Below, piece by piece: positions 3,601 to 48,180 of a DNA stretch of 64,000 nt; position 1 is the stretch's first letter, and the number at the start of each line of letters is the position of its first letter. Source of the stretch: Aquisphaera giovannonii (GTDB taxonomy: Bacteria; Planctomycetota; Planctomycetia; Isosphaerales; Isosphaeraceae); NCBI RefSeq assembly GCF_008087625.1, contig NZ_CP042997.1, positions 930,001 through 994,000 of the forward strand, given 5' to 3'. A program made the position numbers and the translations under genes. The notes under the pieces were generated by a model. It had not been told where the DNA came from, searched no databases, and was given only the letters and a program-made list of their open reading frames with translations.

Positions 3601-3615
3601 CAGTCTCGAGTCACG

Positions 3616-28363: not shown

Positions 28364-29131
28364 TTAGCTGTTCTCCGTGCCGGCGGCCGCGGCCGCGGGG
28401 CTGGTGGTGGCGGGCTCGCGGCGGGCGCCCTGCGCCTGCACGCGGTCCTTGAGGGCCGCCAGGGCCTCCCGCGTGAGGACCAGGTAGCGCTGCTTCAGGA
28501 TGTCGTACGTGTTGAACTCGGCGACCGGCGCCACCGTCATCCCTTCGATGTTGCGGGCCGACCGGTAGAGGACCGGATCCTGGCCGGGCAGCCCCAGCAG
28601 CACGGTCCGGCCGTCGAGCGTCCGGCGGAGGGCGGCGGCCTTGGTCTCGCCGACGTTCTCGGCCGCCTCGGCCTCGGTCAGGTCGGGCCGGCGGATCGCC
28701 CTGAGGGCCTTCACCACGGCCTTCGTCTGGGGCTTCTCCAGGCTCAGGCCGTCGATGACGAGGGCCTGGTTGTCCTGGAACTTGGACAGCAGGGCCATCC
28801 GGATCGCCGACCGCACGGCCTTCTTGGGCATCGTGTAGCGGTAGTCGCGGTTGCGGCGGGCGAACGCCATGCCGCCGCCCTTCCGCTTGTTGGTCCGCTT
28901 GGCGCCGGCGCGGGCGTTGCCGGTCCCCTTCTGCCGGAAGAGCTTCTTCCCCGAGCCGGCGACGTCGGCGCGGCCCCGGGTGTTCACCGTGCCGACCCGG
29001 CGGGCCGCCAGGTGCATCAGGACGACGTCGTGGAGCAATTGCTTGTTGATCGCGCCGCCGAAGTCGGCCGGGTCGATCTGTTCCTCGCCCACCCGCTCGC
29101 CGGCGAGGTTGAACACGGGTATGGTCAGCAT
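28364..29131 (-). CDS. rplD: 50S ribosomal protein L4
   Basis: 255 aa from the ATG at 29131 (MLTIPVFNLAGERVG); another ATG 5 codons upstream is possible. Typical blocks: LHDVVLMHLAARRVGT, GSGKKLFRQKGTGNARAG and KRKGGGMAF (uL4 loop reaching the tunnel). A long Ala/Thr/Pro-rich C-terminal tail (about 25 residues) goes beyond the usual 205-aa protein. In Escherichia coli L4 represses its own S10 operon; whether it does so here cannot be told. Confidence 0.97.
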   Translation of the reverse strand: MLTIPVFNLAGERVGEEQIDPADFGGAINKQLLHDVVLMHLAARRVGTVNTRGRADVAGSGKKLFRQKGTGNARAGAKRTNKRKGGGMAFARRNRDYRYTMPKKAVRSAIRMALLSKFQDNQALVIDGLSLEKPQTKAVVKALRAIRRPDLTEAEAAENVGETKAAALRRTLDGRTVLLGLPGQDPVLYRSARNIEGMTVAPVAEFNTYDILKQRYLVLTREALAALKDRVQAQGARREPATTSPAAAAAGTENS

Positions 29132-29227
29132 TGATCGTCCATCCATCAGCTTGAGGACCGGCGTGGCCCGGCGCCCGACGGTGGGGGGGCGGCTGCGGGC
29201 GTCATCTCATCCGGGCGAGTTCGGAGG

Positions 29228-30939: not shown

Positions 30940-33642
30940 ATGAGCACTCCCAGACGAGTCCGCAGGCCCGGGGCCCGCGCGCTCCGCGCGCGGGGCTTCC
31001 GCGTCGAGCACCTGGAAGATCGCCGGCTGCTGGCGACGAGCCCCTTCAATGCCCCTTCCCTGTCGGGCCTGATCGCCGAGGCATGGCAGGGCCAGGACAC
31101 CTCCCGCGCCGCGATCCGCACGATGGTGACCGCGCTGCAGTCGCAGCTCACCGGCGGCCCGCTCGCGGACTACACCGCAGGCACCGTGGACGGCAGCGGG
31201 CTCGTCTCCGAGGCGACGGGCCTGGTGGCCGGCTATGTGCAGAGCGCCGATTCGCAGCTCCTGCCCCACTTCGTGAACATCGACACGATCCTCCGGCTCC
31301 AGGGCCAGAAGGTGGTGGCCGACCTGGCGTCGCTCAACCAGCAGCTCTCCGCCGGCCTGATCACCGACTCCGACTTCCAGACGCAGGCGAAGACGGCGAT
31401 CGACTCGCTGACGGCCGGGCCGATCAAGTCCCTGGACACGCCCGTCGGCGCGTACGTCACCACGACCCAGGCGTTCGTGACCCAGCTCGAGACGCAGGGG
31501 CAGAGCTTGCTCTCCGGCACTTCGGCCTCGACCGCCGACCTGACGACGACGTTCCAGGCGGCCGTGGCGGCCTACCGCGCCGACATGTTCGCCGGCCTGC
31601 TCGTGACGCACCCGAACATCGCGGGCCGGGTGGACGCGTCGCTCACCACGCTCGAGGACTCGATCGCGGCGATCGACCCGACCGACCCGACCGCGGCGCT
31701 CTCCTCGGCCAAGACGGCGATCACGACGTTCCAGACCGCGATGCTGGGATCCTCCGGGCTGTTCGGCACCGGCGGCCCGGTCTACGCGGCGAACGACCGC
31801 TACGGCTACGTGCCGATCAACCTGACGGTCCCGCAGTCCAGCACGACCATCACCGACGTCTCGGCCGCCGCGGACTTCGGCGGCACGGCCACGCTGACGG
31901 CCAAGCTGGCGACGGCCTCCGGGTCCCCCCTCTCGGGCCAGGACGTGAGCTTCCTGCTCGACGGGGCGTTCGTCGGCACGGCCGTGACCGACGACACCGG
32001 GGTGGCGACGCTCTCGGGCGTCCCCACGAGCGACGCCGTCGGCACGACGTCCAACGCCGTGGTCGCCAGCTTCGCCGGGGCCCGGGGCGATCGCCCGGCG
32101 GCCTCGGCCGGCGACCTCGTCGTCAGCCAGGCGGCGACGGCCCTGGGCGCGGTCTCCGGGACGGGGACCTTCGGCGGGACCGCCTCCCTGACCGCCACGC
32201 TCACGTCGGGCCAGGCGAACGACCCCGTCGTCGGCCAGACCGTCTCGTTCGCGGTGAGCGGGACGAATGTGGGCACCGCGGTGACCAACAGCAGCGGCGT
32301 GGCCACCCTCGCGGGCGTGACGACCTCTCTGCCGGTGGGGACCAACACGGGGGCGGTGACCGCCAGCTTCGCCGGCGGCGGCAACTACGCGGCCGCCACC
32401 TCGGCCACCGGGAACGTGGTCATCAGCGCGGCGCAGACGACGCTCGCGAGCGTCTCCGGGACGGCCAGCTTCGGCGGGACGGCCACCCTGGTGGCCACCC
32501 TGACTTCGAACGCGACCAGCCAGCCGGTCTCGGGCGCCACGGTCACCTTCACGCTCGACGGCACGAACGTGGGCACCGCCACCACCAATAGCAGCGGCGT
32601 GGCCACCCTGACGGGCGTGACGACCACCGACGCCGCCGGCACGCACACCGGCGCGGTCGTCGCCAGCTTCGCCGGGAACGGCAGCTTCGGCGGGGCCGCC
32701 AATGCGACGGGCAACCTGGTGGTCAGCCAGGCGGCGACGGCGCTCTCGGCGGCCTCCGGCTCGGCGACCTTCGGCGGGACCGCGACGCTGACCGCGACCT
32801 TGAACTCGTCGGCGACGAACGCCCCGATCTCGGGCGCGACGGTCACCTTCACGCTCGACGGCACGTCCGTGGGCAGCGCGACGACCAATAGCAGCGGCGT
32901 GGCGACCCTGTCCGGGGTGACCACGACCGACGCCGCGGGGACGCATACCGGCGCGGTCGTCGCCGCCTACGCCGGCGACGCGAACCACGCGGCCGCCGCC
33001 AACGCGACGGGGAACCTGGTGGTCGGCCAGGCCGCCACCGCGCTCTCGGCCGCCTCCGGGACGGCGACCTTCGGCGGGACGGCCACCCTGACCGCGACGC
33101 TGAAGTCGTCGGTGACGAACGCCCCGATCTCCGGCGCGGTCGTGACCTTCACGCTCGACGGCGCGTCCGCGGGCCAGGCGACGACCGACAGCAACGGCGT
33201 GGCCCAGCTCACGGGCGTGGCCACCACCGACGCCGCCGGCACGCACGCCGGCGCGGTCGTCGCCAGCTATGCCGGCTCCACCAACTACCTGGCCGCGACG
33301 AACGCCACCGGGGACCTGGTGGTCAGCCAGGCCGCGACGACGCTGGGCGCCGTGTCCGGGACGGGCAGCAGCGACCCCGGCGGGACGGTCGCCCTGACGG
33401 CGACCCTGACCTCGCCGGCCGCCCCGGGCGGCGTGCAGGGCCAGACCGTGTCCTTCTACCTGGGGACCAGCACCACCGCCGTGGGCACGGCCCAGACCAA
33501 CGGCAGCGGCGTGGCGACGCTCTCCGGCCTGGACAACACCGGGCTGACCAACGGCGAGACCGTCACGGCGAAGTTCGCCGGCGCCGGCAACTTCGCCGCG
33601 GCGACCGACGCGACCGGCACGCTGACCCTGGCGACCGGCTGA
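30940..33642 (+). CDS. Ig-like repeat surface protein with LEPR-XLL-type N-terminus
   Basis: 900 aa. The N-terminus is basic and contains the motif RVEHLEDRRLLAT (residues 21-33), resembling the LEPR-XLL motif that opens many large planctomycete surface proteins. Residues 35-295 are a helical domain I do not recognise. Residues 300-900 are six tandem Ig-like (Big_3_5-type) units of about 100 residues, each with FGGTATLTATL, VTFTLDGT.VG.A.TNSSGVATL and DAAGTHTGAVVA blocks. It is probably displayed outside the cell, in adhesion or wall structure. The start follows a weak AGGGA site. No sortase motif or C-terminal anchor is seen. Confidence 0.8.
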   Translation: MSTPRRVRRPGARALRARGFRVEHLEDRRLLATSPFNAPSLSGLIAEAWQGQDTSRAAIRTMVTALQSQLTGGPLADYTAGTVDGSGLVSEATGLVAGYVQSADSQLLPHFVNIDTILRLQGQKVVADLASLNQQLSAGLITDSDFQTQAKTAIDSLTAGPIKSLDTPVGAYVTTTQAFVTQLETQGQSLLSGTSASTADLTTTFQAAVAAYRADMFAGLLVTHPNIAGRVDASLTTLEDSIAAIDPTDPTAALSSAKTAITTFQTAMLGSSGLFGTGGPVYAANDRYGYVPINLTVPQSSTTITDVSAAADFGGTATLTAKLATASGSPLSGQDVSFLLDGAFVGTAVTDDTGVATLSGVPTSDAVGTTSNAVVASFAGARGDRPAASAGDLVVSQAATALGAVSGTGTFGGTASLTATLTSGQANDPVVGQTVSFAVSGTNVGTAVTNSSGVATLAGVTTSLPVGTNTGAVTASFAGGGNYAAATSATGNVVISAAQTTLASVSGTASFGGTATLVATLTSNATSQPVSGATVTFTLDGTNVGTATTNSSGVATLTGVTTTDAAGTHTGAVVASFAGNGSFGGAANATGNLVVSQAATALSAASGSATFGGTATLTATLNSSATNAPISGATVTFTLDGTSVGSATTNSSGVATLSGVTTTDAAGTHTGAVVAAYAGDANHAAAANATGNLVVGQAATALSAASGTATFGGTATLTATLKSSVTNAPISGAVVTFTLDGASAGQATTDSNGVAQLTGVATTDAAGTHAGAVVASYAGSTNYLAATNATGDLVVSQAATTLGAVSGTGSSDPGGTVALTATLTSPAAPGGVQGQTVSFYLGTSTTAVGTAQTNGSGVATLSGLDNTGLTNGETVTAKFAGAGNFAAATDATGTLTLATG
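31831..33640 (+). repeat. Six tandem ~300-nt coding repeats
   Basis: Repeats inside the Ig-like protein gene. The TTCGGCGG landmark falls at 31876, 32170, 32470, 32770 and 33070: one step of 294 nt, then exact 300-nt steps. The last unit starts at 33331 and has diverged at the landmark. Units 4 and 5 are the most alike at DNA level, which points to recent duplication or gene conversion and to a gene that can change its repeat number. Confidence 0.85.
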
Positions 33643-33753
33643 TCGCCGGCCCCAGCTCGCAAGCCTCGCGTCGCGTGAGCCCCGGGTCGATCCTCGTCGC
33701 CGAGCGTCGCCGGCGGACGCCGCCTCCTCGCTCGGCCTTGCTCACCGGGGCGT

Positions 33754-33776
33754 CCGCCGGCCCATCCGGCCGGCGG
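33754..33776. terminator. Hairpin between convergent surface-protein genes (first)
   Basis: CCGCCGGCC, a 5-nt loop, GGCCGGCGG: a perfect 9-bp stem just past the end of the Ig-like protein gene. No T-run; a likely stop or mRNA end-protecting structure for the rightward transcript. Confidence 0.45.
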
Positions 33777-33788
33777 CTCGACGGACGG

Positions 33789-33829
33789 GCCTCGCGACGC
33801 CGCCCGAGGTCGGTGCGGCGTCGCGAGGC
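33789..33829. terminator. Perfect 15-bp hairpin between convergent genes (second)
   Basis: GCCTCGCGACGCCGC and its exact reverse complement are separated by 11 nt, 34 nt from the stop of the giant gene. Such a long perfect stem between two converging genes fits a bidirectional terminator, though T-runs are lacking. Confidence 0.6.
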
Positions 33830-33862
33830 GTGGTCGCGGCCGAGTGGGCTTCGTGGCCGGGG

Positions 33863-36800
33863 TTAGCGTGCCGTCATGTAGTTATAGAAGAAATTGGACA
33901 CGTACAGCTTGCCGTTGGGGCCGAGGTGGTAGTATCCCAGGCCCGCGACGAACTGGAAGGTGTCGCAGGTGATCGAGATGTCGCCCCCGGAGACGATGCC
34001 GGAGGAGCTATCATTCGAGGTCCCGAAGTTGTAGTACACCCCGATGTTCGCGTTGCTCGTGGTCGTGCCGAAGACGCCCATCGGGTAGACCGTGGGGGAC
34101 GAACCGGCCGTCCCCGGGCGGAAGTGATCGATGACCGTCATCGGATTGGGAAGGTCAGGCGAGCCCACGGCGCCGGTCTCATACACCCACACCAGGTAGT
34201 TGAACGTGGGAGAGACCGTCTGGACGACCGGATCCGCAAGGTACAAGGTGACCGATCCGCCGCCGAAGACCCGGTCGATGGCGGCCATTGCGTAGAAGGG
34301 GATGTATCCGCCTCCGTAGTACCTGTAGTACTCCTGCAGCTCCAGGTAGACGTTGCCCTGGGCGTACACCGAGCGAGATCCCTGGCCGGCGGCCCGCAGC
34401 CCGTCGGGGCTCTCCACCACCCGGATCGGCAGGTAGTTGTAGTACGTGCCGACGGCCCTGGCCGCGTAGAGCGAGAAGCTGTCCGTGATGATCTGGCCCG
34501 TCGCGGACGCGATCGAGGGCCCCGCGGCGATGTGGATGATCTCGCCGCCGGGGGAGTAGATGCTCCCGGTGTAGCTGCTGATCTGCGTGTTGCCGATCGG
34601 GTTGTCGATCGTGCCGTTGACGACGACGTCCGACGGGGCCTGGGACGTCCCGCCGTAGTCGGTGACCGTGATGTAGGTGGGGCTGAAGACGTGCTTCACG
34701 CTGAACTGGAAGGCGCCCACGTCGTTGGCGTCCAGCGTGATCTGGTTCTGGAAGTTGTACGGGCTCCGGTTGATGGGGCTGATGTCGTTGAGGTTCAGGG
34801 CGTACGGCGAGCTGTTGGTGATGTTGACCGTCCGGTAGGCCTCGCGGTAGGTGAACAGCGGGCCCGTCGGCCGGCTCGTCGCGATGACCGTCCCGCCGGA
34901 GGGGTCGGACTGGAAGAGCGCCTGGGCGCGGATGGAGTTGTAGATCGAGTCCACGGAAATGAGTCCGTTGACGTTCCCCGACCGCTGGCCGAAGTTGACG
35001 CTGGCGTTCACCGCCCGGACGATGTTGCCGGCGGAGTCGATCTCCAGGTCGGGATCCGGCCCGCTCAGGAACGTGACGTCCGCGTCCCAGTCGATCCGCC
35101 GCGAGCCGGAGGGGCCGGAGGCGTCGGCGTACAGGGCGAGCACCGGGAAGCCGGACGGGGTGGCCAGCGGGGTGGCGTACGAGGCCGGCAGGCCCGCCGC
35201 CGCGGGCGTCCTCGGCCCGACGACGAGCGTGGCGCCCGCCATGGCCTTCACCTGGGTGGTGAGGTTGGTGTTGATGTTGGAGTCGGCGTCGGCGTCGCCG
35301 ATCCCGTAGAAGGCGGCGTGGTTGTGCTGGTTCGCGCCGACTCCGCCGGTCACCGCCTTGATGTCCAGCCCGCCGTCGGCCTCGATCGCGGCCCCGCCGG
35401 AGATCTGGGCCAGGATCAACGGGTTCCAGGTGCCGTTGGTGCTGGCGTCCGTGCCGCCGAAGAGGCCGCCGGCGGTCGCGTCCGTCGACAGGTCGCCGCG
35501 GGCCGACGTCAGGTTCGCCAGGATGCTGACCGTCCTCGCCGTGACGCTCGCCGCGCCGCCGATGACCGCCCGCGTCGTGCCGTAGAAGTCGCTGTTCGAC
35601 TGGGCGTCGGCGTGGGAGTAGAGCCCGCCCCCGTCGGAGCTGGCCGACACGTTCGTGTTGGCCAGCGATGAGGTCGAGGCGATCCTCAGGTTGCCGCCGA
35701 CGGACACGGTCATGCCGGTCGCGTCGATGACGCCGTTCCCCTTGTCGAGGCCGAGGAACGCCGAGGTGTTGTCCTTGAAGCTCGTGCCGGCCTCGACGCT
35801 GCTGCCGAAGGCGAGCCCGCCGCCGGAGTTGTCGCCGTGCGCCGTGGTGCTGGCCGTGGCGTTGGAGAGGATCGTCAGGTTGCCGTCGACTTGGAGCGAC
35901 GAGGCGGCGTCGTAGGCGTTGACCGTGGCGCTCGCGTTCGTGTGCGCCGACGGCTTGCCCGAGGCCACGATGCCGCCCTCGCCCCCCTCGGCCGAGGTCG
36001 AAGAAACCCCGTCGCCCGGCGGCGGCGCGGCCGTCCGCAGCGAGACCCCGCCCGGACCGAGCAGCTTGTCGTTGCCGGCCGGCGCGGTGCTGAGGTCGAT
36101 GTGCAGGGACTGGGTGCCCGACGACGCCGACAGGTCGATGCCGGCCGCGCGGAACGCGTGGGCCCCCTTGACGTCGGCCGGCGAGCCGACGCCCAGCGCG
36201 AGGATCGACCCGGCGGGGGTCGCCGAGAGCTGGAACGTGGAGGACGTGGCGTTGCGGACGTAGTACGTCCGGCCGTCCACGAGCCCGGAGATCGGCGCGG
36301 GGACCAGGGCGTGGCGGACGGCCGCCGCCGCCGTGCCCTTGTCGGGCGTCAGGGCGATCGGCTTGTTGGCGATCGCGTCGGCGTAGCTGGCGGCGAGCTG
36401 CACCGTGTAGTCCGAGGTCTTGATGACCCAGTAGGTGCCGCCGCTCGTGAGTCCGCCGATCGGCGCCATGCCCGGCTCGACCCGGTAGGTGACCCGTTCG
36501 CCGGTGAGGAGGCCGTGGCCGAGGATCGCGCCCTGCCCGTTGTTGGTCCCGAGGTAGATGTTGTTGGCGTTGGCGTCATTCCCGCCGATCGTGTGGTCGG
36601 CCGCGAGCGAGACGTCCACCCCCTGGCTGCCGAACAACGCCGCGGCGGGGGCGTCGTAGGTCACCGCCTGGCCGTTCGCGAACCCGTGCCCGGGCAGCGT
36701 GATCGTCGAGCCGGAGACCGCGCCGGCGGCCGAAGGATCGAACGTCTTGCCGGCGGCGGTCGCGGCGGCCTTCGTCGCGTAGAGCTGGATGGTGAAGTCA

Positions 36801-39800
36801 TCCACCTTGCGGACGTAGTACGTGCCGGCCGCGTTCAGCCCGGCACCGATGGAGGCCTTGCCGGCGGGGTCATACTTGACCGCGTCGCCGGTCTCGAAGC
36901 GGTGCGGCGTGGCGAAGCGGATCACGTCGAGGTTGGGATCCACGCCGGCCTGCGGGCTGAACACGTCGCCGGCATTCGCCGAGGCGGCGTTGAACGCGGC
37001 GCCGAGCATGAGCGTGTTGGCGTCCATGACCAGCACCCCGAACGCGCCGGTGCGGAGCGCGCCGCCGGGGGTGCCGACGGGCGTGCTGCCATTGGGGTTG
37101 TAAGTGACCGTGTCGCCGGTGACCAGCCCGTGCGCCGGGAAGGTGATCGTGTCCGCGGCCACGTTCACGGCCTTCGAGGGGTCGAAGGTGTCGCCCGGGA
37201 CGGCCCCGGTGGGCTGGGCGGTCGAGGAGGCCGAGAGGAGGACGTTCCCCACGACGTAGACGATCGAGCCGGCGCCGAGGAACGCGTTGACGGTCGGGCT
37301 GCTGTTGACGGTCGAGTTCGAGGCCCCGACGAACGACGCCCCGCCGCCGTCCACCTCCGCGGTGGCGTCGCCCTCGGCCCGGATCGACTGGGCCTGGATC
37401 GTGAGGTTGCCCGTGACGTACTCGACGAGCACGTCCTTGCCGACGAAGGCCTGGGTCGTCGGGTTGAGGTCGGCCCTGGCGTCGGCGCCGCCGTCGGAGA
37501 AGACTCCCCCGCTGCCCGAGAAGGCGCGGGAGCTGCCGGTCGCGGTGCTGTAGGCGTCGAACTCGAGGTTCCCCGCCTGCCAGATGTTGGACTTGTCGTC
37601 GGCGAAGGCCTGGGTCAGGCCGCCGATGGTGGTGCTCGCCGCGAGGGACGAGCCGTTGATGAGGCCGCCGCCGCCGCCGGTCGCGGTCGCCGTCGCGGTC
37701 GGGACGGCCGTCGCCTTGAACAGGGCGTTGCCGGTGACGGTGAAGCTGGCCCCGGTGCTCAGCCGGGCCTGCGTCGTCCCGATGGCCCGGGCGTCCGCGT
37801 GGCCGCTGCCGCCGCCGGCGACGTTGATGCTGATCACCTCGGCGTCCGCATCGGAGGTCTGGGCCGACGCGGCGGTCACCGAGAGGCTCGAGGCATCCAC
37901 GGTGCCGTCCGCGTGGGCCAGGGTGCCGCCCTGGACGAGCGCCCGGGGGCTGACGTCGGCGAGGCCCAGGACGTTGCCCTGCACCCCGTTGGACGAGGCG
38001 TCGGCCCGCTGGTTCGACGTCGCCCCGACCGCCACGGCGCCGGAGGCGGTGATGCTGGAGCCGGCGCCCAGGTAGGCCTCCACCGTGTGCTGGGCGGTGG
38101 CCGACGGATCCAGCTTCACCGAGCCGAGCAGGCTGATCCCGACGCTCGATTGCGAGGCGGACGCCCGACTCGTGGAGTCCGCCAGGAAGGAGACGTTGCC
38201 GGCGGTCAGCGAGGCCCCGTTGCCGGCGTACGCCCTGGTCCCGCCCTGCTCGACCGCGGCGGCCGACAGGGACGCCACGTTGGCGACCCCGAGGCTGACG
38301 CTCGTCGAATCCGCCGAGGCGGAGTCGTTCGACGTGGCGCGGAAGGTCAGCGGCCCCCCGCCGACCGTGACGACCGCCCCCGCGGACAGGTAGGAGTCGG
38401 TCTCGTGCGAGGCCGTGACCGGGTTCGAGCCCACGGCGGAGTTCACCGCGCCGATGTCCAGGGAGAAGGTCTTCGTGGTCGCCACCACGGCCGGGGCGCT
38501 CGCCGTGACGTTCACCGCGGAGGCATTGATTTTGAAGTTGCCCCCCAGGTGGGCCAGGGTGCTCCCCCCCGCGTTGATGGAGGGCCGCACCGTCCGGACG
38601 TTGACCGCGCCGACCGCGATGTTGGTGCCGCTCACCTGGGCCGTGTCGTTCGAAGTTGCGGTGAGGTTGGCCGCCCCGGAGAGCGCGATGCTGCCGCTCA
38701 GCCCGGCGTCCGGCGCAACGCCCGCGGCGGGCCCGACGAACACCTGCACGTCGTCGGTCGTCGCGGCCGTGGGCTTGATGGTGGCGACCGTGACCGCGCC
38801 GGCGAGGGCCATGGTGACCGCGGCGTTGGCCGTGTTCGCGGCGTTCGCGGTCGCGTTCAAGGCCGGGGCCTTGAGGCTGGTCCCCTCGCCGACGTAGGCC
38901 CACGTGACGCCGCCGGCGTTCGCGCTGGGCTGGACGAGCGCCACGGGCACCGCGGCGAGGTTGACCGTCAGGCCGCCGGCCGTCGCGGTGTTGATCGCCT
39001 CGGCGTCGAGGCCGAGGGGCGCGCCGGAGACCGTCACGTTCGACTTCCGGCCCACGAACGCGGCGGTGGTGTGGGCGGTCGCGGCCGACTTGATGGCGTC
39101 GGTCACGCTCACCCCGCTCAGCTCCACCGAGACCGCGTTGGCGGTCGCCGTGCTGGCCGAGCTCGCCAGGAAGTTGACCTTGCCGGCGGAGATCCCGAAC
39201 GTCCCCCCGAGGTGGCTCAGGGTCGCGCCGCCGGCGGTCACCTCGGGATGGAGGATGCTCACGGCCACGCCGCTGACGCCCACGTCGAAGGAGTCCACCG
39301 TGGCCTTGTTGGTGGAGCTTGCGGTCGCCGTGACGGCCCCGCTGCCGACCGCGATGTTGCCCGAAAGGCCGGCCGTCGGGTCGGCGTACCCCGCCGGGCC
39401 GACGTAGACCTCCGTCGTGTGCGAGGTCTTCGCGATCGGGTGGGCGACCGCGACCTTCACCGCGGCGACCCCGAAGTTCACCGGGTTGGCCTCGGCCGTG
39501 TTGCTGGAGACGGCGGAGAGGTCCAGCCCCTTCGCCGTGACGGATGCCCCTTCCCGGACGGACGCCGTGGTGGACCCGCCGGCGTCGGCCTCCGACTTGA
39601 CGACGGCCACGTCCACCCCGCTGATGGCGATGGCCGCGCCCCCCGACTTCGCCGTGTTCACGGAGGTAGAATGGAGCGAGAGCAGGCCGCTGATCGCCAG
39701 GCTCGAGCCGGCGGCGGCGTAGGCGTCCGTCGCGTGGCTCGTCGCGGCGGCCTTGTCGGCGACGCCGACCTTGGCGGTGGCCGCGACGACGCTGACGGCG

Positions 39801-42800
39801 TTGCCGGTCGCGAGGTTGTCCGGGGAGCTCGCCAGTACGTCCACCGTGGAGGCGGTGATCCCGTACTTGCCGCCGACGTGCGCGGTCGTCGCGCCGCCGG
39901 CGATCACCCGCGGCTGCTCCACGCTCACGGAGATCGTGCCGAGCTTGATCGCGACCTGCTGGACCGTCGCCTCGTTCCTGTCGGTCGTGGCGTGCACGGC
40001 GATCGCCGTGCTGCCGACGTTGATCGAGCCCGAGAGGCCGGCGTTGGTGGCCTTGCCGGTGTCCGGACCGATGTAGGCCTCGACGACGTGGCTCGTCTGT
40101 GCGGTCGGCTGCGCGATCGCGACGTTGAAGGCGGACAGCGCCGCGGTGAAGCTGTTGGCCGCGGCCGTGTTCGAGGCGTTCGCCAGGACGCTCAGGCCGG
40201 CGGCCTTGATCGTCGCCCCCTCCTGCACGTCGGCCCGCGTGCTGCCGCCGGCGTTGGCCTCGGCCTTGGCGTACTGGACGCCGCCGAAGTTGGCCAGGAT
40301 GTTCGCCTCGCCGGCCGTCGCCGCGTTGGTCGAGCCGGCCTTGATCGACAGCGTGCCGTTGAGCGCCAGGGCGGCCCGGGCGCCGACGCCGGCCTCCGTC
40401 GCGTGGTTGGTGAAGGCGCCCTGCGTGTTCCCGACGCCGGTCGCGGCGGCCACGTCCACGGAGATCACGTTCGAGGTCGCCGCGTTCGAGGAGGTCCCCG
40501 CCACGTTCACCGCCGCGGCCGTGATGCCGAAGGTGCCGCCGAGGTGCGCCCGCGTCGAGCCGCCGACGGTCGCCTGCGGGTGCATATACGACAGCGTCAG
40601 CGCGCCGGCCTGGGCGGTGACCTCGTTGATGGTGGCCGTGTTCGAGGGCGAGATCGCGATGATCGCGACGTTGCCCGCGCCGACGTTGATCGACCCGGAG
40701 AGGCCGCCGTTGGGGGCCTGGTCGTATGCCGGGCCGACGTACGCCTCGACGTCGTGCGACGTGCTCGCCTTGGGGTTGGAGTAGGCCCCGGAGATCCCGC
40801 CGGCGGAGATCAGAAAGGGCGTAACGACGGCCTTGTTGGCCGCGTCGGCCTGGACGGTCAGGCCCGAGGCGGCCAGGTGAGCCCCCTCGGCGACGAAGGC
40901 CCGCGTCGAGCCGCCCGCGTCGGCGACGGGCAGCAGGGCCGCGCCCGTGATGGCGCCGGCGTTCAGGTGGAGGTCGAACGCGGTGGCGGTGTTCGTGGAG
41001 CTGGCGTGCGGGCCCGTCAGCGTCGTGACCTTGACGTTGGCGGACGAGCCGAGCGAGGCCGACGTCTGGAGCGACGTCCGGGCCGTCGGGTTCGCCGCGG
41101 TCGCCGTGATCGCCCCGGCGCCGACGAGCACGCTCTCGGCCGACGGGGTGTTCGTCGAGGTCGCCGTCACGGTCAGCGAGGGCGCCGTCACCGTGCTGTC
41201 CACCGCGGCCGAGGTGAGGCCGGGCGTGCCGCCGACGGAGACCGAGCCGACCTTGATCGCCGAGAACGTGGCGCCGCCGATGTCGGTCAGGCTGTACATG
41301 CCCTGCCCGCTCACGGCGCCGAGCGAGCCGACGACGGCGATGACGTCGTCGTCGCTCACGCTGTTGGCCACCACCACGACGCTCCCCGGCGCCGTGATCT
41401 GGGCCCCGGCGTCGGTGTGCGCCTGGGTCCGGTCCTGGATGATGTGCATCGAGCCCGCCGCGGCGACCGAGACGAGCCCGCCCAGGTTCAGGGTGCCGGA
41501 GAACGAGTTGAGGTCGTCGGTCGAGCTGGCGCGGACCTCCACGCTGGAGTTGGACGCGACGATCGCCCCGGCGCCCAGGTACGCCTCCGTGTCCTTGGAA
41601 AGCAGCGCGAAGTCGAAGGTCGCGGAGACCCCGACGCCGAGCGCGGCGCCGACGTCGCCCGCGATCCCGCGGAAGACGGTGTCGTCGCGGGAGAGGACGT
41701 TCACGAGCTGCGACGCGGCCGCGCCGGCGTCGTTCTGGTTGACCTTCGCGCCGGCGTCGATGTCGGCGACCACGTGGTTGTCCACCACCGTGGCGATGCC
41801 CGAGCCCTGCACGGCGACAATCCCCGCGGCGCCGATCGCCCCGGCGAGCGGCTTGAACTCGTCGTAGTTGGTCGCCGCGACCGACACGCCGCGGACCTGC
41901 CTCGTCGTCGGCGCGGAGCCGGGGCCGGCGTCCGTCGGCACGGTGGCGAGTCCGCGGAGGGCCAGGGCGTCGACGGAGCCGCCGCTGACGTAGGCCCGGG
42001 TGTCCGCCGACTTGTAGAAGAGCGCGCCCGAGACGTTCACCGCCCCGATGAGGCCGAGCGCGCCGGTGCCGGCGAGCGGCGCGTAGGACGAGGTGCTCCT
42101 CGCCGAGACGATGACGTTGCCGTCGGCGCGGACGGTCGCGCCCTTGGCGAACGCCCAGGTGTGCTCATTCAGGGCCACGCCGGTGGCCGCCGCGCTCAGG
42201 GTCGCGGCGCCCAGCCCCAGGCCGCCGGCGAGCGAGAGCGGCACGTCGGTGGTGCCGGCGTTGATCGTCACGTCGCCGTAGGCGTGCACGGAGGCCCCGG
42301 CGTCCAGGTGCGCCTGGACCGTCCGGCTGAGCACGTCGGCGCGGACGGCCGCGTCCACGGTCCCCGCGGCCACGCTGCCGGCGGCCGCCCCCCCCTGGAG
42401 GGTGTTGCGCCCGGTCGCGTTGATCGTCACGTTGCCCTTGGACGCCTCGAGCTGGCCGGCGACGGCGACGTTGGTCATCTCCTGGAGGAACGAGCCGGCG
42501 ATCGACGCGCCGGCCCCCGCCGCGAGCCCGAGCGTCGAGCCCCCCGCGAGGGTCGTCGAGGTCACGTCGCTGGCGGCGGTCAGGTTGATGTCGCCGGCGG
42601 TCGCCGTGAGCTTGGAGCCGGCCCCGACGGTCACCTGGATCGTGTCCGGCGAGGAGGGGGCGCCGGCGTTGATCGCCGCGGCGGCCGCCGCGGACGCCAC
42701 GGATCCCGCACCTGCGGAGGCCCTGGCCGTCAGCGACTGCGACCCCGCCCCGCCCGCGGCGAGCGAGATGGAGGGCGCGGTGATCGACGCGCCATTGCCC

Positions 42801-45800
42801 ACGGCGACGGTGTTGCTGCCGCCGGCGTAGTTGGCCGCCAGGGAGAGGTGGGCGGCCACGGCGGAGCCGGTGGCGCCGCCGTCGGCCGTGCTGACGGGGT
42901 TGTCGGACACGTTGGTCCGGATCGAGACCGGCGTGGCCGAGGTGAGCGCGGCGTTCGCGCCAATCTGGGCGAGCGTCTGGGGGAGCATGCCGCTGACGGC
43001 GACGGCGGCCGAGGCCGAGAGCGGGGGAAGCTTGACGCCGATCTGGTCCTGGATCGCGGTCAGGGTGTCGCCGACGAGCGGGAGCTTCACCTGCCCCGGC
43101 TTGCCCGCGTTCGGATCCGCCAGGGCGATCGCCGAGTTGACGAAGTCGCCGAGCGACTTCCCGAGGTCCTTGCCCCCGGCGGCCCCGGCGTTCGCGGTGG
43201 TGACCGCCGGGGACGTCTCGTCGGCCTGGAGGACGATCGCGTTGACGGTGGCGCTGCGGACGAGCTGAGCGGTCGTGACCTCGCGGTCGATCCCGGCTGC
43301 GATGGCGGCGCCGACCCCGACGCCCGACCCGGCGGCCTTGCCGTCCGCGGTCGTCGTCAGCGTGGCGGCGTCGGTGGCGTGGATGGTAAGCGTGCCGGGG
43401 ATCGTCAGCGCGGCCGGGCCGGCGAGGACCTCGGCCACGGTCTGGTTCCCCGCGAAGCCGACGGCGATCGCCGCCGCGGCGGCCGCGGACGGGACGCTCG
43501 CGCCGGAGTTGCTGGAGGTCGTCACCGCGTGGGTGCCGTCGGCGTCCGCGGTGAGGTCCTTCTCCCCGGTGATCGTCGCCGAGCCGATGGAGGCGCGGCT
43601 CTGATTGGCCGAGGCGTTGAGCGCGACCGAGGCCCCGAGCCCGACGACGGTCGCGCCCGAGGGCTTCGCCAGGGCGGTGGAGAGGTCCTTGGTCGCATCG
43701 GCCGAATGGACGAGCAGGCCGCCCCCGGCGATGGTCAGCTTCGCCCCGTCCCGGACCGCCGCGGTGGCCTGGCTGGCCCCCACGTTGACCGCCAGGGCGC
43801 CGGCCACGCCGGTGGCCGCCGTGCCGGCGCCGGAGGTCGCGTTCGCCTGGAACGTGTAGACCCCGTTGCTCCCCATCGCGGCCTCGACCGTGATCGCCGA
43901 CGCCGCGGCCGTGCCGGCGAGGCTCGCCGCGACCGAAGGACGGGCCACGTTCACCGCGAGGGCCGCGCCGACGCCGGCGGTCGAGCCGTTGGCGGGCCGG
44001 CCGTCGGCGGTGGCGGAGTCGTCGAGGTTGCTCAGCGTGTGGACGACCAGCGGGCCGGTGGTCGTGACCGAGCCCGTCGCCGCGAGCGTCGCCCCTCCGG
44101 TCGTCAGGTCCACGTTCGCCGCCGCGGCGGCCGCCAGGGCGAGGTCGCCGCTGGGCGTGGTCGCGGTGGGCACCGCCACCGTGGCGGGCAGCCAGCCGGA
44201 CGACTTGCCGAAGGCGACCGCCTTGCCGATGATGCCGTTGATGCCCGTTCCGCCCGACGCCGCCCCCTTCGCGCCGGCCAGCCCCTGGGCCGTGCCGGTC
44301 TCGCCCAGGTCGGCCTCGACGGTCACCGAGCTCGCCTTCGTCACCTTGCCTGCGATCGTCGCCTCGTCGTCGTCCAGCCCGATGCCCACGCCGAGCGCCG
44401 CGCCGACGGCGACGGCCGAGCCGGCGGTGTCGCCGCGGCCCTGGGAGGAGGTCTTGCCGCGATGTCGGGCCCTCACGAGCACCTGGCCGCCGGCCCCGAT
44501 CACGGCCGCCGCGCCCACCAGGGCCATGGTGACGTTGTGCGACGTCGCGAGCGCCAGCGCGGGCGCCACGGCCGTGCCGCCGGCCGCCCCGGCCGCGGCC
44601 AGGGCGCTCGTGGCGTAGTTCCCGGTGGCCGCGACCGTCACCTGGTCGGGCGAGGTGACCGCGCCGGAGACCTCGGCCTTCGCCCCGTTCGCGGCGACGT
44701 CGATCGCGACCGACGCGCCCACGCCGGTCTTCGCGAAGCCGGCCGCCTTGCCGTCGGCGGTCGCGACGTCGCCGGAGACGTTGGTCGTCGCCTGCACGAC
44801 CACGTCGGCCGTCGCCGGGCCGTTCAGGGTGACGCCCCCTCCGGCCGCGATCGCGGCGTAGCTGGAGGCGGACGGCAGGTCCAGCGCCAGCGCGCCGGCG
44901 ACGCCGACGGCCGTGGAGCCCTGCCCGGAGTTGGCCGTGACCGTGGTCTGGCCGTTCGCCGTCGCGGTGATCGTGGCGGCCGTGGCGGTCGCCTTGCCGG
45001 CGACGGTCGCCTCGGCCGTCGGGCTGGACGCATTGATCGCCACGGCCCCCGCGACGTTCGTCGTCGAGTTCACGGCCAGCGCCTTCGCCGTGGCGGCGTC
45101 GGCGCCGGTGCTCGTCGCCTGGATCGTGAGGGCCCCTCCGGCCTGGAGCACGGCCCCGGCGAGCAGCCCCGCGGAGGCGTCCAGGCTGGCGAGGTTCACG
45201 GCGATCGCGGCGGCGACGCCGAGCTGGCCGTCGGGCGTCGCCGCCTTCGGGATCGCCACCGTCCCGGGCGTCCAGCCCTGCCCGCTGGCGAAGGTCGCCA
45301 GGTTGCCGAGCAGCGTGTTGACGGCCGTCGTCCCCGGCTTGGCCCCGGCCGTGCTGGCCAGGGCCGTGGTGGCGGCGGTCCCCTGCCCCGTCGCCTGGAT
45401 CGTGACCGCGGCCGGCCCGGTCGTCACGCTACGCCCGATCGTCGCGGCGGCCGTCTCGTCGGCGATCGTCACCGCGGTCGACGCGCCGACGGCGACCCCG
45501 GACGTCGCCGTCGCCGAGTCGACGTTCGTCGTGGCCGTCGTCGTCCGGCTCGCCGCCAGTGAGAGCCCGCCGGTGAGGGCCAGCGCCGGCCCCGTGTCGA
45601 CGATGGCCTGCGTGTCGCCCGAGGGGACGTCCAGGCTCAGCGCGCCGGCCACGGCGGTCCCGCCCGCCGCCCCGGCCAGCGACGAGGCCGTCGCGGTGTG
45701 ATTCCCCGTCGCGGAGAGTGTCAGCGAGCGGGCCCCGGCGATAGCGGCGTTCTTCTCGACGGCCGCGCGGGAGCTCACGTCGGGGGCGTCCATCGCGACC

Positions 45801-47587
45801 GAGGCCCCCACGCCGACGCTCGCGCCGCCGACGACCTTCGGCAGGGCGGAGGTGGGGCTGGACGTGGTCGACTGCGCGGTCAGCGTCAGGTCCGCCCCGT
45901 GCAGGTTCACGGCCGCGCCCGGCTCGATGATCGCCCTGGCGGCGACGGTCGTCGCGTCGATGGCCAGCGCCCCGGCCACGCCGATCGCCGCGGCCGAGGG
46001 GCCCGATGTGGCCGAGACGGAGTACCGGCTCGCCGGCGTCACGCCGTTGACCGTCGCCGGCATCAGGCCGCTGACGTTCACCGCCGGGGCGGTCACGCTC
46101 GCCGTGCCGCCGAGGGAGGCCAGGTCGTCCGCCGTCGTCTTGCCGATGGCCACCGCGGCGCCCACGCCCGTGCCCGCCGCCCCGGTCGTCGGCGAGGCGT
46201 CCGCCGTCGTGGTCGGGTGCTGGGATGCGGTGGCGGCGATCGCGAGCGGGGCCGCCGTGGACGTCAGCGTGCCGCCGATCACCCGCGCCTTCGTGTCCCC
46301 CTTCAGGCTGGTCACGGCCACCGCGCCGGCGACGGTCACGCTGCCGTCGGGCGTCTTCGCGCCGTAGGTGGTGAGGGCCTGCTGCCCCCTCGTCGGGCCG
46401 GGGCTGCCCGCCGCGGCCCCGCCCTGCGTGGACCGAGCGTACGTCGTCACGGTGCGGTTGCTGGTCGCCGACACGCTCACGCCGGCCGCGTTCAGCGTGC
46501 CCCCGCTCACCGTCGCGGAGGTGTCGCCGGACAGGGCCGTGACCGCCACGGCGCCCCCCGCGGCGGTCTTGGCGAAGGTCCCCAGGGTGCCGTCGGCGTT
46601 CGTCGTGAGGTTGACCGTATTCGTGCTGGCGATCGTCGCCTTGCCCGAGGGCGCCGAGAGCGTCCCGCCGGAGATCGCCACGGTGGCCGCGCTGGCGACC
46701 GTCGAGGTGGACGACGCCGCGTCGGCCTTGGTCGTGCCCGCCGCCGCCGGCGCGGCGGCCAGCGCGACGTTGACGCTCGAGCTCGCCGTGATGTTCAGGT
46801 CCGCCGAGGCCGTCAGCGTGCCGCCGCTGACCTGAACGCTGGCACCCGAGCTCGACGTCACCAGCCCGACCCCCACCAGGCCGCCGAAGAGGGAGGAGGC
46901 CTGGCTGTTCACGCCCACGGTCGATTGCGCGGCGAGCGTGATGCTGCGGCCGGTCAGCGCACCCCCCGTCATCGTGATGCCGGCCGTCGCGTTGGCCGCG
47001 ATCGTCCCCGCCGGCCCGACCGCGCCGGCGGACTGCTGGACGGCCGAGAGCGTGATGTCCTGGGCCGCCTTGAGCGTCCCGGCGACCGAGATTGGGGCGT
47101 CGCTCGTTAGCGCGAACGACGTCGGCTGGTAGGCCGCCCCCGACCCCGCGACGGCCACCTTGTCGGCGACGCCGCCCGCGGGCAGCCCCCCCTTGAAGAC
47201 CACGCTGATGGGCTCCGCCGTGCCGACTCCCGCGTAGCTGAGGTCGATCGTGAGGGAGTCGCTCGCCTTGTCGGCGCCGGTGACCTGGACCTTCACGTCC
47301 TGGGTGAGCGCGGCCTGCTGGATCACCGTGGCGTGGGCGTTGTCGTAGAGCTGGAGGTTGGCCACCCCCCCGACGGAGGCCACGCGGAGGACGAGGTTCG
47401 ATCCCGCCGCCGGGGCCGTGTAGTTGAGGAAGGCCGTCAGCGCGAGACGCTGCTCCAGCTCCTCCATGAGCGGCAGGTGGAGCCTCCTCGCCGGATGCTT
47501 CCCGGCCCGGACCGCCCGCCTCGACGGACGTCCGCGGCGATCCGCCATCCTGCCGTACCCGGCCCGCCCCGCCTTGTCGCTCGCCAT
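33863..47587 (-). CDS. Giant repeat-built surface protein (4574 aa)
   Basis: One uninterrupted frame of 13.7 kb. The N-terminus is basic and holds LMEELEQRLALTAF (about 40-53), a variant of the LE-x-R-x-L motif of planctomycete surface proteins. Most of the rest is Ala/Gly/Thr/Val/Ser-rich beta-repeat sequence with almost no Cys or Trp, as in long adhesins. Two super-repeats are visible: about 360 aa (roughly 43.0-45.3 kb) and 222 aa (38.2-40.9 kb). Then four HG.x.GD.V.Y units (36.2-37.2 kb) and a Tyr-rich unique C-terminal part of about 330 aa, perhaps an anchoring or export domain. The start ATG has GAGAGG upstream. Likely role: cell-surface filament or adhesin. Function is not shown. Confidence 0.85.
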   Translation of the reverse strand: MASDKAGRAGYGRMADRRGRPSRRAVRAGKHPARRLHLPLMEELEQRLALTAFLNYTAPAAGSNLVLRVASVGGVANLQLYDNAHATVIQQAALTQDVKVQVTGADKASDSLTIDLSYAGVGTAEPISVVFKGGLPAGGVADKVAVAGSGAAYQPTSFALTSDAPISVAGTLKAAQDITLSAVQQSAGAVGPAGTIAANATAGITMTGGALTGRSITLAAQSTVGVNSQASSLFGGLVGVGLVTSSSGASVQVSGGTLTASADLNITASSSVNVALAAAPAAAGTTKADAASSTSTVASAATVAISGGTLSAPSGKATIASTNTVNLTTNADGTLGTFAKTAAGGAVAVTALSGDTSATVSGGTLNAAGVSVSATSNRTVTTYARSTQGGAAAGSPGPTRGQQALTTYGAKTPDGSVTVAGAVAVTSLKGDTKARVIGGTLTSTAAPLAIAATASQHPTTTADASPTTGAAGTGVGAAVAIGKTTADDLASLGGTASVTAPAVNVSGLMPATVNGVTPASRYSVSATSGPSAAAIGVAGALAIDATTVAARAIIEPGAAVNLHGADLTLTAQSTTSSPTSALPKVVGGASVGVGASVAMDAPDVSSRAAVEKNAAIAGARSLTLSATGNHTATASSLAGAAGGTAVAGALSLDVPSGDTQAIVDTGPALALTGGLSLAASRTTTATTNVDSATATSGVAVGASTAVTIADETAAATIGRSVTTGPAAVTIQATGQGTAATTALASTAGAKPGTTAVNTLLGNLATFASGQGWTPGTVAIPKAATPDGQLGVAAAIAVNLASLDASAGLLAGAVLQAGGALTIQATSTGADAATAKALAVNSTTNVAGAVAINASSPTAEATVAGKATATAATITATANGQTTVTANSGQGSTAVGVAGALALDLPSASSYAAIAAGGGVTLNGPATADVVVQATTNVSGDVATADGKAAGFAKTGVGASVAIDVAANGAKAEVSGAVTSPDQVTVAATGNYATSALAAAGAAGGTAVAPALALATSHNVTMALVGAAAVIGAGGQVLVRARHRGKTSSQGRGDTAGSAVAVGAALGVGIGLDDDEATIAGKVTKASSVTVEADLGETGTAQGLAGAKGAASGGTGINGIIGKAVAFGKSSGWLPATVAVPTATTPSGDLALAAAAAANVDLTTGGATLAATGSVTTTGPLVVHTLSNLDDSATADGRPANGSTAGVGAALAVNVARPSVAASLAGTAAASAITVEAAMGSNGVYTFQANATSGAGTAATGVAGALAVNVGASQATAAVRDGAKLTIAGGGLLVHSADATKDLSTALAKPSGATVVGLGASVALNASANQSRASIGSATITGEKDLTADADGTHAVTTSSNSGASVPSAAAAAAIAVGFAGNQTVAEVLAGPAALTIPGTLTIHATDAATLTTTADGKAAGSGVGVGAAIAAGIDREVTTAQLVRSATVNAIVLQADETSPAVTTANAGAAGGKDLGKSLGDFVNSAIALADPNAGKPGQVKLPLVGDTLTAIQDQIGVKLPPLSASAAVAVSGMLPQTLAQIGANAALTSATPVSIRTNVSDNPVSTADGGATGSAVAAHLSLAANYAGGSNTVAVGNGASITAPSISLAAGGAGSQSLTARASAGAGSVASAAAAAAINAGAPSSPDTIQVTVGAGSKLTATAGDINLTAASDVTSTTLAGGSTLGLAAGAGASIAGSFLQEMTNVAVAGQLEASKGNVTINATGRNTLQGGAAAGSVAAGTVDAAVRADVLSRTVQAHLDAGASVHAYGDVTINAGTTDVPLSLAGGLGLGAATLSAAATGVALNEHTWAFAKGATVRADGNVIVSARSTSSYAPLAGTGALGLIGAVNVSGALFYKSADTRAYVSGGSVDALALRGLATVPTDAGPGSAPTTRQVRGVSVAATNYDEFKPLAGAIGAAGIVAVQGSGIATVVDNHVVADIDAGAKVNQNDAGAAASQLVNVLSRDDTVFRGIAGDVGAALGVGVSATFDFALLSKDTEAYLGAGAIVASNSSVEVRASSTDDLNSFSGTLNLGGLVSVAAAGSMHIIQDRTQAHTDAGAQITAPGSVVVVANSVSDDDVIAVVGSLGAVSGQGMYSLTDIGGATFSAIKVGSVSVGGTPGLTSAAVDSTVTAPSLTVTATSTNTPSAESVLVGAGAITATAANPTARTSLQTSASLGSSANVKVTTLTGPHASSTNTATAFDLHLNAGAITGAALLPVADAGGSTRAFVAEGAHLAASGLTVQADAANKAVVTPFLISAGGISGAYSNPKASTSHDVEAYVGPAYDQAPNGGLSGSINVGAGNVAIIAISPSNTATINEVTAQAGALTLSYMHPQATVGGSTRAHLGGTFGITAAAVNVAGTSSNAATSNVISVDVAAATGVGNTQGAFTNHATEAGVGARAALALNGTLSIKAGSTNAATAGEANILANFGGVQYAKAEANAGGSTRADVQEGATIKAAGLSVLANASNTAAANSFTAALSAFNVAIAQPTAQTSHVVEAYIGPDTGKATNAGLSGSINVGSTAIAVHATTDRNEATVQQVAIKLGTISVSVEQPRVIAGGATTAHVGGKYGITASTVDVLASSPDNLATGNAVSVVAATAKVGVADKAAATSHATDAYAAAGSSLAISGLLSLHSTSVNTAKSGGAAIAISGVDVAVVKSEADAGGSTTASVREGASVTAKGLDLSAVSSNTAEANPVNFGVAAVKVAVAHPIAKTSHTTEVYVGPAGYADPTAGLSGNIAVGSGAVTATASSTNKATVDSFDVGVSGVAVSILHPEVTAGGATLSHLGGTFGISAGKVNFLASSASTATANAVSVELSGVSVTDAIKSAATAHTTAAFVGRKSNVTVSGAPLGLDAEAINTATAGGLTVNLAAVPVALVQPSANAGGVTWAYVGEGTSLKAPALNATANAANTANAAVTMALAGAVTVATIKPTAATTDDVQVFVGPAAGVAPDAGLSGSIALSGAANLTATSNDTAQVSGTNIAVGAVNVRTVRPSINAGGSTLAHLGGNFKINASAVNVTASAPAVVATTKTFSLDIGAVNSAVGSNPVTASHETDSYLSAGAVVTVGGGPLTFRATSNDSASADSTSVSLGVANVASLSAAAVEQGGTRAYAGNGASLTAGNVSFLADSTSRASASQSSVGISLLGSVKLDPSATAQHTVEAYLGAGSSITASGAVAVGATSNQRADASSNGVQGNVLGLADVSPRALVQGGTLAHADGTVDASSLSVTAASAQTSDADAEVISINVAGGGSGHADARAIGTTQARLSTGASFTVTGNALFKATAVPTATATATGGGGGLINGSSLAASTTIGGLTQAFADDKSNIWQAGNLEFDAYSTATGSSRAFSGSGGVFSDGGADARADLNPTTQAFVGKDVLVEYVTGNLTIQAQSIRAEGDATAEVDGGGASFVGASNSTVNSSPTVNAFLGAGSIVYVVGNVLLSASSTAQPTGAVPGDTFDPSKAVNVAADTITFPAHGLVTGDTVTYNPNGSTPVGTPGGALRTGAFGVLVMDANTLMLGAAFNAASANAGDVFSPQAGVDPNLDVIRFATPHRFETGDAVKYDPAGKASIGAGLNAAGTYYVRKVDDFTIQLYATKAAATAAGKTFDPSAAGAVSGSTITLPGHGFANGQAVTYDAPAAALFGSQGVDVSLAADHTIGGNDANANNIYLGTNNGQGAILGHGLLTGERVTYRVEPGMAPIGGLTSGGTYWVIKTSDYTVQLAASYADAIANKPIALTPDKGTAAAAVRHALVPAPISGLVDGRTYYVRNATSSTFQLSATPAGSILALGVGSPADVKGAHAFRAAGIDLSASSGTQSLHIDLSTAPAGNDKLLGPGGVSLRTAAPPPGDGVSSTSAEGGEGGIVASGKPSAHTNASATVNAYDAASSLQVDGNLTILSNATASTTAHGDNSGGGLAFGSSVEAGTSFKDNTSAFLGLDKGNGVIDATGMTVSVGGNLRIASTSSLANTNVSASSDGGGLYSHADAQSNSDFYGTTRAVIGGAASVTARTVSILANLTSARGDLSTDATAGGLFGGTDASTNGTWNPLILAQISGGAAIEADGGLDIKAVTGGVGANQHNHAAFYGIGDADADSNINTNLTTQVKAMAGATLVVGPRTPAAAGLPASYATPLATPSGFPVLALYADASGPSGSRRIDWDADVTFLSGPDPDLEIDSAGNIVRAVNASVNFGQRSGNVNGLISVDSIYNSIRAQALFQSDPSGGTVIATSRPTGPLFTYREAYRTVNITNSSPYALNLNDISPINRSPYNFQNQITLDANDVGAFQFSVKHVFSPTYITVTDYGGTSQAPSDVVVNGTIDNPIGNTQISSYTGSIYSPGGEIIHIAAGPSIASATGQIITDSFSLYAARAVGTYYNYLPIRVVESPDGLRAAGQGSRSVYAQGNVYLELQEYYRYYGGGYIPFYAMAAIDRVFGGGSVTLYLADPVVQTVSPTFNYLVWVYETGAVGSPDLPNPMTVIDHFRPGTAGSSPTVYPMGVFGTTTSNANIGVYYNFGTSNDSSSGIVSGGDISITCDTFQFVAGLGYYHLGPNGKLYVSNFFYNYMTAR
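36240..37170 (-). repeat. Four HG-x-x-x-GD-x-V-x-Y coding units inside the giant gene
   Basis: Four units with the patterns HGLVTGDTVTY, HRFETGDAVKY, HGFANGQAVTY and HGLLTGERVTY, each followed by a Gly-rich turn and a TYYV/TYWV...T.QL strand. They differ clearly from the surrounding beta-repeats and may form a separate domain. Confidence 0.6.
38216..40883 (-). repeat. 222-codon super-repeat in the giant gene
   Basis: The EG landmark codon of the module STRA.V.EGA.L recurs at 40883, 40217, 39548, 38882 and 38216: steps of 666, 669, 666 and 666 nt. Each super-repeat joins an EG module, a YVGP...GLSGSI.VG module and an HLGG.FGI.A..VNV.AS module. The last copy is diverged. Confidence 0.85.
43079..45250 (-). 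repeat. ~360-codon super-repeat in the giant gene
   Basis: Landmarks GWTPGTVAIP, GWLPATVAVP and the diverged GKPGQVKLPL lie 1080 and 1089 nt apart (45248, 44168, 43079). Each is followed by a G/D-rich turn and an AAAIAVN-like strand. This is a second repeat family with a different length from the 222-codon one. Confidence 0.7.
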
Positions 47588-48180
47588 GGTGTGCCTCTCA
47601 GTTTAATTCCTGCGCATGCCCCGTGCGCAGCGTCCCCGCATGGGCCGCCTTGCGGCCACCGGGTGCTCCGTCTCTGCATCGGATTAGGGGTCCCGCCACG
47701 CGGGAGTGCATTCGTGCTGCGGCCGATTCCGTCCTGATGGATGCGATCGCGATCAGCTTCCGTCCCGTTTGTCCGAATCATCCTCCAAAAAAGAGTGACC
47801 CAAACCGAAGTCGAGCGGGACAGTCCCCTCCGAAAATGCGCGGGAAGGCGAGTCGTCCTGCCCGGTGGGGGCCTCGCGGGATCGTGAGCCTGAGCCGCGG
47901 TCACGGCGGGGGCCGCGGCCCGGCGTCTGCAAGGCACGAGGCCGCCCCGGGCAGATTCGCCTTCGATGGTGGCCTCCTCCGAAGCGGGCCCGGCGGAGCG
48001 TGCCTAGGAGGCGACCGGGCTTGACGGGGGATTCCCTTCCGTCTCTCATGGCCGGCTGCCGATGAGGGATCGTAGCCCGCCGCCGCGCGCCCGGCGGGAG
48101 GATCGCCGCGGGGGGCTTGCCTCGCGGTGGCGTCGGCAGTCAGGCCTGGACGGGTCGGGATGACCCGGGAGCATCATATC
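47588..48180. other. Divergent intergenic region
   Basis: 593 nt between the giant gene (leftward) and the AsmA-like gene (rightward). No coding frame is credible. It should hold both promoters; on the minus strand TTGGGT and TGATTC are 17 nt apart but are too weak to call. Confidence 0.35.

Follow-up and report, generated by a model that had tools for sequence, protein, structure and literature searches.

The locus examined here raises the question of what kind of protein is encoded by a 13.7-kb gene composed largely of internal repeats, and whether that protein represents an undescribed surface structure, as the original prediction proposed. In the window, by which is meant the whole 64,000-nucleotide stretch of Aquisphaera giovannonii DNA that was analysed, the gene occupies positions 33863..47587 and is indeed unbroken, running from ATG to stop through 4574 codons with zero internal stops. 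It lies on the minus strand, a detail absent from the original prediction, and its product has a calculated mass of 439 kDa and a pI of 5.1. GC at codon positions 1, 2 and 3 amounts to 63.6, 59.4 and 97.4%, the last value comparing with 96.2, 97.4, 97.1 and 92.7% at the third positions of four neighbouring ORFs. A plus-strand ORF of 3241 aa (35837-45562) is an antisense shadow of the gene, since the high GC (97.8%) falls on its codon position 1. No family was named by Pfam in the whole 4574-aa protein at E <= 1, no anchor or autotransporter domain was named in it by Pfam or NCBIfam, and an Rfam search with a promoter and terminator scan of 33600-33900 gave no result. The host genome measures 10.53 Mb in 3 contigs. 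On the plus strand, divergent from the giant gene, the ORF at 48127-51633 resembles DUF748/AsmA-like proteins (Pfam, E 1e-6) and GspN_Lepto (NCBIfam, E 8.7e-4), both under the cut-off. A further ORF, at 28364-29146 on the minus strand, was recognised by eye as resembling ribosomal protein L4, and the giant gene may therefore adjoin a ribosomal protein cluster.

Both super-repeat lengths named in the original prediction were recovered. The period of 222 codons is visible in DNA repeat family D14 (spacings of 666, 669 and 666), in family D2 (666 and 666) and in protein lags of 221-223, 443-445 and 665-667, while the period of about 360 codons appears as protein lags of 359-365 and 724/725. The lag scan of the protein contains 222, 445, 667 and 360/361, and 53 is its second strongest lag. 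Self-BLAST with a single query returned no off-diagonal rows and the repeats were measured by lag scans. Ungapped 60-aa self-matches scoring at least 70 numbered 73, whereas three shuffles preserving local composition gave 1, 1 and 3. The 360-codon block covers aa ~549-1435 (43283..45943, minus strand) with about six units and an insert of about 39 aa; its clearest period displays unit steps of 53, 53, 92, 54, 53 and 58, the following period being less regular. Four tetrads of 222 aa extend over aa 2228-3116 (38240..40906, minus strand), starting at aa 2228, 2450, 2673 and 2895, with unit steps of 64, 53, 52 and 53 and an insert of about 11 aa in every fourth unit. The GLSGSI-type insert was found at four places in this protein and in none of the relatives read.

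The recurrence of steps close to 53 aa was analysed with a unit profile grown from 17 seeds within the 222 block. At a lax cut-off the last round of the search returned 64 rows, lying between aa 209 and 4078, against 268 rows in ten shuffled copies of the protein, so that rows below about 15-20 bits are unreliable. Fifty-one units reached at least 20 bits, compared with 0 in ten block shuffles whose top score was 15.7, and 57 reached at least 10 bits, compared with 2.7 per shuffled copy; training of the profile on this same protein inflates all these scores. Steps between units fell at 48-58 aa in 32 of 50 cases, with 4 more at 62-65 aa. Judged from its sequence, the protein contains some fifty to sixty probable copies of a ~53-aa unit. 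They form a first array at aa 209-1855 (42023..46963, minus strand), defined by the unit profile and by NCBIfam model NF012206 on pieces, a second array at aa 2000-3460 (37208..41590, minus strand), defined by the unit profile, and a third short solenoid-type stretch at aa 3893-4078 (35354..35911, minus strand), where 3 of the 4 profile rows are weak.

The relation between the two super-repeats was addressed with a profile built from the 222 block only and scanned on aa 200-1900. Seven hits of at least 10 bits were obtained, the mean of 50 shuffles being 0.76 and their maximum 4; a single hit reached 15 bits or more, and the best real score (16.5) stayed below the best shuffled one (20.6). Kinship of the 222 and 360 blocks therefore holds for the set of units and is weak unit by unit. 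With this qualification, the 222- and 360-codon super-repeats appear to be multiples of one ~53-aa unit. The two families of the original prediction are thus real as lengths but share a common unit, and the reading as two unrelated repeat families was rejected. The separate duplication events that it suggested survive as separate amplifications, although of one 53-aa unit, and several relatives show other super-repeat lengths. In the host genome the unit profile matched at E <= 0.01 in 30 places, all 30 inside the giant gene. A 1111-aa query from the 222 block, run against 59 genomes with at most 12 candidates scored per genome, recovered the giant gene alone, perhaps owing to its strongly biased composition. 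Judged by title or opening of the abstract, none of the open-licence papers among the matches listed was seen to deal with this 53-aa repeat in planctomycetes.

Two tetrads (aa 2228-2672, eight units, 445 aa) were modelled with AlphaFold2 from a 10-row alignment consisting of seven stretches of the window protein, two of L059 and one of L060. The model has a pLDDT of 89.9 and a pTM of 0.88 and is made of strands only. The PDB was searched with the repeat by sequence and by profile without a match, and Foldseek found no PDB match to the model at E <= 0.001 (best E 0.54, TM about 0.1); its one match among the BFVD viral models (E 4.5e-4, prob 0.09, TM 0.09) is not convincing. VIA-align, which re-aligned only the 19 top chains of Foldseek, gave 4dn7 a Z of 16.1 and three SufD-type chains a Z of 15.1-15.2, with rmsd of 3.2-3.6 over 227-235 residues, followed by CsgA (Z 14.2 at rmsd 7.9), UpaB (Z 9.1) and EtpA (Z 8.6). 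We take 4dn7 and the three SufD-type chains to be SufB/SufD-like beta-helices, and presumably UpaB and EtpA are beta-helices as well. The eight-unit model is best read as a predicted beta-solenoid. The AlphaFold2 model of the C-terminal 1200 aa is poor (pLDDT 47); over about aa 3865-4034 its pLDDT lies at 59-80 in blocks of ten, the rest of the model being poor. The title of PDB entry 4dn7 is that of a putative ABC transporter.

Beyond the second array lies the distinct HG-x-x-x-GD domain noticed in the original prediction. It was located at aa ~3465-3800 (36188..37195, minus strand) as four units spaced 57-76 aa, plus a decayed fifth recognised by eye; the relaxed pattern occurs at aa 3486, 3562, 3634 and 3691 and the strict HGxxxGD only at aa 3486. 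The pattern occurs 19 times in the window protein plus the relatives read, four of these matches being one gene counted twice (G019, L060). Across 53 positions, a profile of 13 such units matched endosialidase 4hiz (E 0.0018). The likeness to the endosialidase beta-barrel domain (PF12195; PDB 4hiz) lies in the HGLKxGDxV pattern, but the match is single and weak, and Pfam found the domain in 2 of the 13 members with a best E of 0.016. The ubiquitin-E1 FCCH domain, tried as a candidate for these units, matched 1 of 13 members (E 0.055), the endosialidase barrel being somewhat better.

The terminal module extends over aa ~4150-4574 (33866..35140, minus strand) and could be aligned to aa 4418 with planctomycetes and to aa 4539 with L059. 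Tyrosine makes up 9.2% of the last 325 aa versus 1.9% overall, and 8.6% of aa 4240-4540 versus 1.7% in the roughly homologous stretch of L059. The Tyr-rich unique end of the original prediction is therefore Tyr-rich and non-repetitive but not unique, as its relatives are found inside other giants. Pairwise BLAST related parts of about aa 4010 to 4418 to giants of genomes G002, G053, G032 and G019; in G053, these parts and the HG block stand in reversed order. Among 59 genomes, 7 contain relatives of aa 3461-4083 and 3 contain relatives of the C-terminal 375 aa, the host genome being counted in both. The check for C-terminal domains shared with other giants of the same genome was negative, as the final 375 aa have no second match there at E <= 0.001. 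The hierarchical repeat structure is clear, and to judge from these alignments the putative head cassette is shared with other giants.

Contigs were also scanned with a three-row alignment by means of two HG-block peptide patterns, and 3 of the 43 candidates were confirmed: a Betaproteobacteria MAG, G019 and G032. The giant of the MAG, RI_222, matches query residues 1-1139 of 1174 (aa 3401-4539), with 38% in the best segment. The Betaproteobacteria label may reflect a binning error, although three frames of this MAG contain the unit (7172, 7916 and 8458 aa). Its 8458-aa giant combines, within one frame, an N-terminal LEPRLLLS with RTX, beta-helix and cohesin domains; a dockerin match also occurs there, slightly short of the cut-off. 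RTX, beta-helix, cohesin and dockerin are extracellular domain types. The RI_222 giant (L059, L065, L066) thus resembles the window protein in the aa 3401-4539 module, in the 53-aa units upstream of it and in the N terminus; it differs in being longer, in carrying RTX, beta-helix, cohesin and a weak dockerin, and in an end that is not Tyr-rich.

Lags in the relatives were read mostly from partial frames and are descriptive values. The strong ones are 110, 220, 330 and 873 in G016; 817, 271 and 1088 in G002 C270; 185, 543 and 272 in G002 C280; 162 in G019; 54 and 482 in G053; and 55, 53, 106 and 223 in L059. Many of the relatives' lags lie near multiples of 53-55, while others fall off them (185 and 80 in C280; 62 and 123 in G019; several at 61-64; 43, 83 and 1395 in G032). 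Frames G002C280_39380 and G002C270_7060 were taken as antisense and left out of these rows, although present in the pairwise BLAST set. L059 has a lag of 223 as well, so a tetrad-like period may also occur outside the window protein. In the 7853-aa ORF of G016 C74 (L057/L058), a very strong period of 110 aa (z 14.3) corresponds to about two units and is far sharper than the periods of the window protein.

At the other end of the protein, a degenerate LExRxLL surface/export motif was found at aa 36-52 (LHLPLMEELEQRLALTA; 47432..47482, minus strand), where the protein reads MEELEQRLALT, with a matrix score of 20.4; the LEQR core was chosen by eye before matrix scoring. This score lies inside the leave-one-out range of the 15 training N-termini (17.1-36.1); 2 of 2000 shuffled versions of aa 1-120 scored as high, and the best score elsewhere in the protein was 11.0. 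PF07595 (Planc_extracel) did not match aa 1-120, and the giant gene is absent from its 29 genome matches at E <= 1; the model is noisy, as 5 of 14 control genomes match at that threshold. The only Pfam match on aa 1-120 was PF20205 (E 0.2). An LExR-type start was found in 7 of 7 giants whose N terminus was read, five of relatives (LEDRTLLS, LEDRIAPA, LEDRTLLS, MEERILLT, LEERLAPA) and two of the MAG (LEPRLLLS in both). In the host genome, 7 of 12 loci picked by PF07595 contain the motif, the pattern giving no clear motif in the other five. Among the seven is the plus-strand gene at 30940-33642, which is convergent with the giant gene across a gap of about 220 bp and encodes a surface-type protein with N-terminal HLEDRRLLA and six stretches of Big_3_5 Ig-like repeats. 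A Ser/Gly/Pro-rich ORF at 58638-60527 on the plus strand has an N-terminal GLEDRTALS motif and is matched by neither Pfam nor NCBIfam at E <= 1.

The consensus RRLxxExLExRxLLA was derived from R. baltica, according to the available extracts of PMC8567305. The same extracts describe 52 motif genes in Tuwongella, with 20 proteins detected, 8 of them in the SDS fraction only, and place the motif in 8 of the 10 longest proteins (4,016-10,566 aa), which are likely surface exposed. Partial texts of PMC5177795 and PMC5352709 report that every one of the 29 planctomycete genomes available at the time contains giant genes above 5 kb, with 16-36 in each of four Isosphaeraceae, and an excerpt of PMC11573180 describes the Planctomycetota as rich in huge proteins. 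Lactic acid bacteria have giant surface proteins that bear solenoids (PMC12863079, in extract), which offer a comparison of kind only. The window protein shares with the PF07595 giants its size class, its phylum, the LExR motif at aa 36-52 and a repeat-rich make-up, but its motif is degenerate and missed by PF07595; a difference from the Tuwongella giants is that two of the latter carry integrin-beta domains (PMC8567305, same extracts). We conclude that the giant protein is most likely an ordinary example of already described giant surface proteins of Planctomycetota.

From the LExR motif, the solenoid model and the literature on giants, we infer an exported, rod-like surface or extracellular-matrix protein, its export, location, adhesion and ligand included, with a probability of roughly 70%. 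A structural protein kept inside the envelope, in the periplasm or internal membrane system, and serving stiffness, not adhesion, is an improbable alternative. It would agree with the lack of any anchor named by Pfam or NCBIfam, and the SDS-fraction recovery of some Tuwongella motif proteins, as extracted from PMC8567305, would not by itself amount to proof of surface exposure; against it, the similarly built relative in the MAG has cohesin and RTX domains together with a weak dockerin match.

A further alternative comes from the likeness of the repeat to LktA_tand_53 (NF012206). This model matched the whole protein at E 2.7e-4 in 9 stretches, at 21.1 bits versus a curated cut-off of 50. By pieces, it matched aa 201-520 (E 7e-6), aa 521-860 (E 0.028) and aa 1521-2080 (E 2.1e-8), the best piece attaining 34.2 bits, again below 50; nothing was found on aa 861-1520, 2081-2740, 2741-3480 and 3861-4100, that is 4 of 7 pieces, the 222-codon block included. 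Two of 28 single units matched at E <= 0.05. In a set of 59 genomes that includes the host, the model has matches at E <= 0.001 in 13 and matches above the cut-off in 5, the host not being among these five; 0 of 14 control genomes match, and the matching frames range from 1005 to 9501 aa among the matches listed. The giant protein thus resembles LktA_tand_53 in its tandem units of 53-aa period but remains under the curated cut-off and has no TPS domain named by Pfam or NCBIfam. A two-partner (LktA/FHA-type) filamentous adhesin secreted through a TpsB-type outer-membrane pore would account for this resemblance and for the VIA-align placement of the unit model near EtpA and UpaB, but it is made quite unlikely by the TPS secretion domain named by neither database in the whole protein; the lack of a ShlB match in the genome weighs little against it, 14 of 14 controls being equally silent. 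The autotransporter route (type Va) was rejected, as the PF03797 beta-barrel was found neither in the protein nor in the genome at E <= 0.001, with 2 of 14 controls matching. That the array is functionless, being either unexpressed or in decay, is very improbable, since this sole gene of its genome with the unit profile, whose tetrad with insert was absent from the relatives read, is nevertheless open over 13.7 kb, has a third-position GC like its neighbours and contains modules conserved in the Betaproteobacteria MAG.

The surface rod favoured here could be organised as follows. The N-terminal LExR-type motif would direct export, as its motif class suggests, and some fifty to sixty 53-aa units would stack as a beta-solenoid shaft, on part of which the 11-aa loop of every fourth unit may form a regular decoration. 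The small HGxxxGD units, the short second shaft segment and the C-terminal module would together constitute a head, most likely touching sugars or surfaces. Units would multiply by recombination in blocks such as tetrads and hexads, so that shaft length and decoration would vary by lineage while the 53-aa unit is kept. The surface structure announced in the original prediction is retained by inference, and the word undescribed is not: giant LExR proteins of 4,016-10,566 aa are known in a planctomycete (PMC8567305, in extract) and the repeat resembles an NCBIfam model.

A broader proposal is more speculative and, in our estimate, would hold in a minority of outcomes. The 53-aa unit may represent a wide beta-solenoid class, without good solved counterpart, in Planctomycetota and Proteobacteria. 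Lineage-specific block amplification, in tetrads here and in pairs or five-unit blocks in relatives, would set shaft length and side-loop spacing, producing a modular ruler with an interchangeable head cassette moved between phyla. The finding shows that super-repeats of unequal length in a giant protein can arise from one small folding unit amplified in differing blocks, and that head modules are common to planctomycete giants and those of a Betaproteobacteria MAG. Two tetrads (445 aa) provide a testable construct for the structure of a repeat class without a PDB sequence match.
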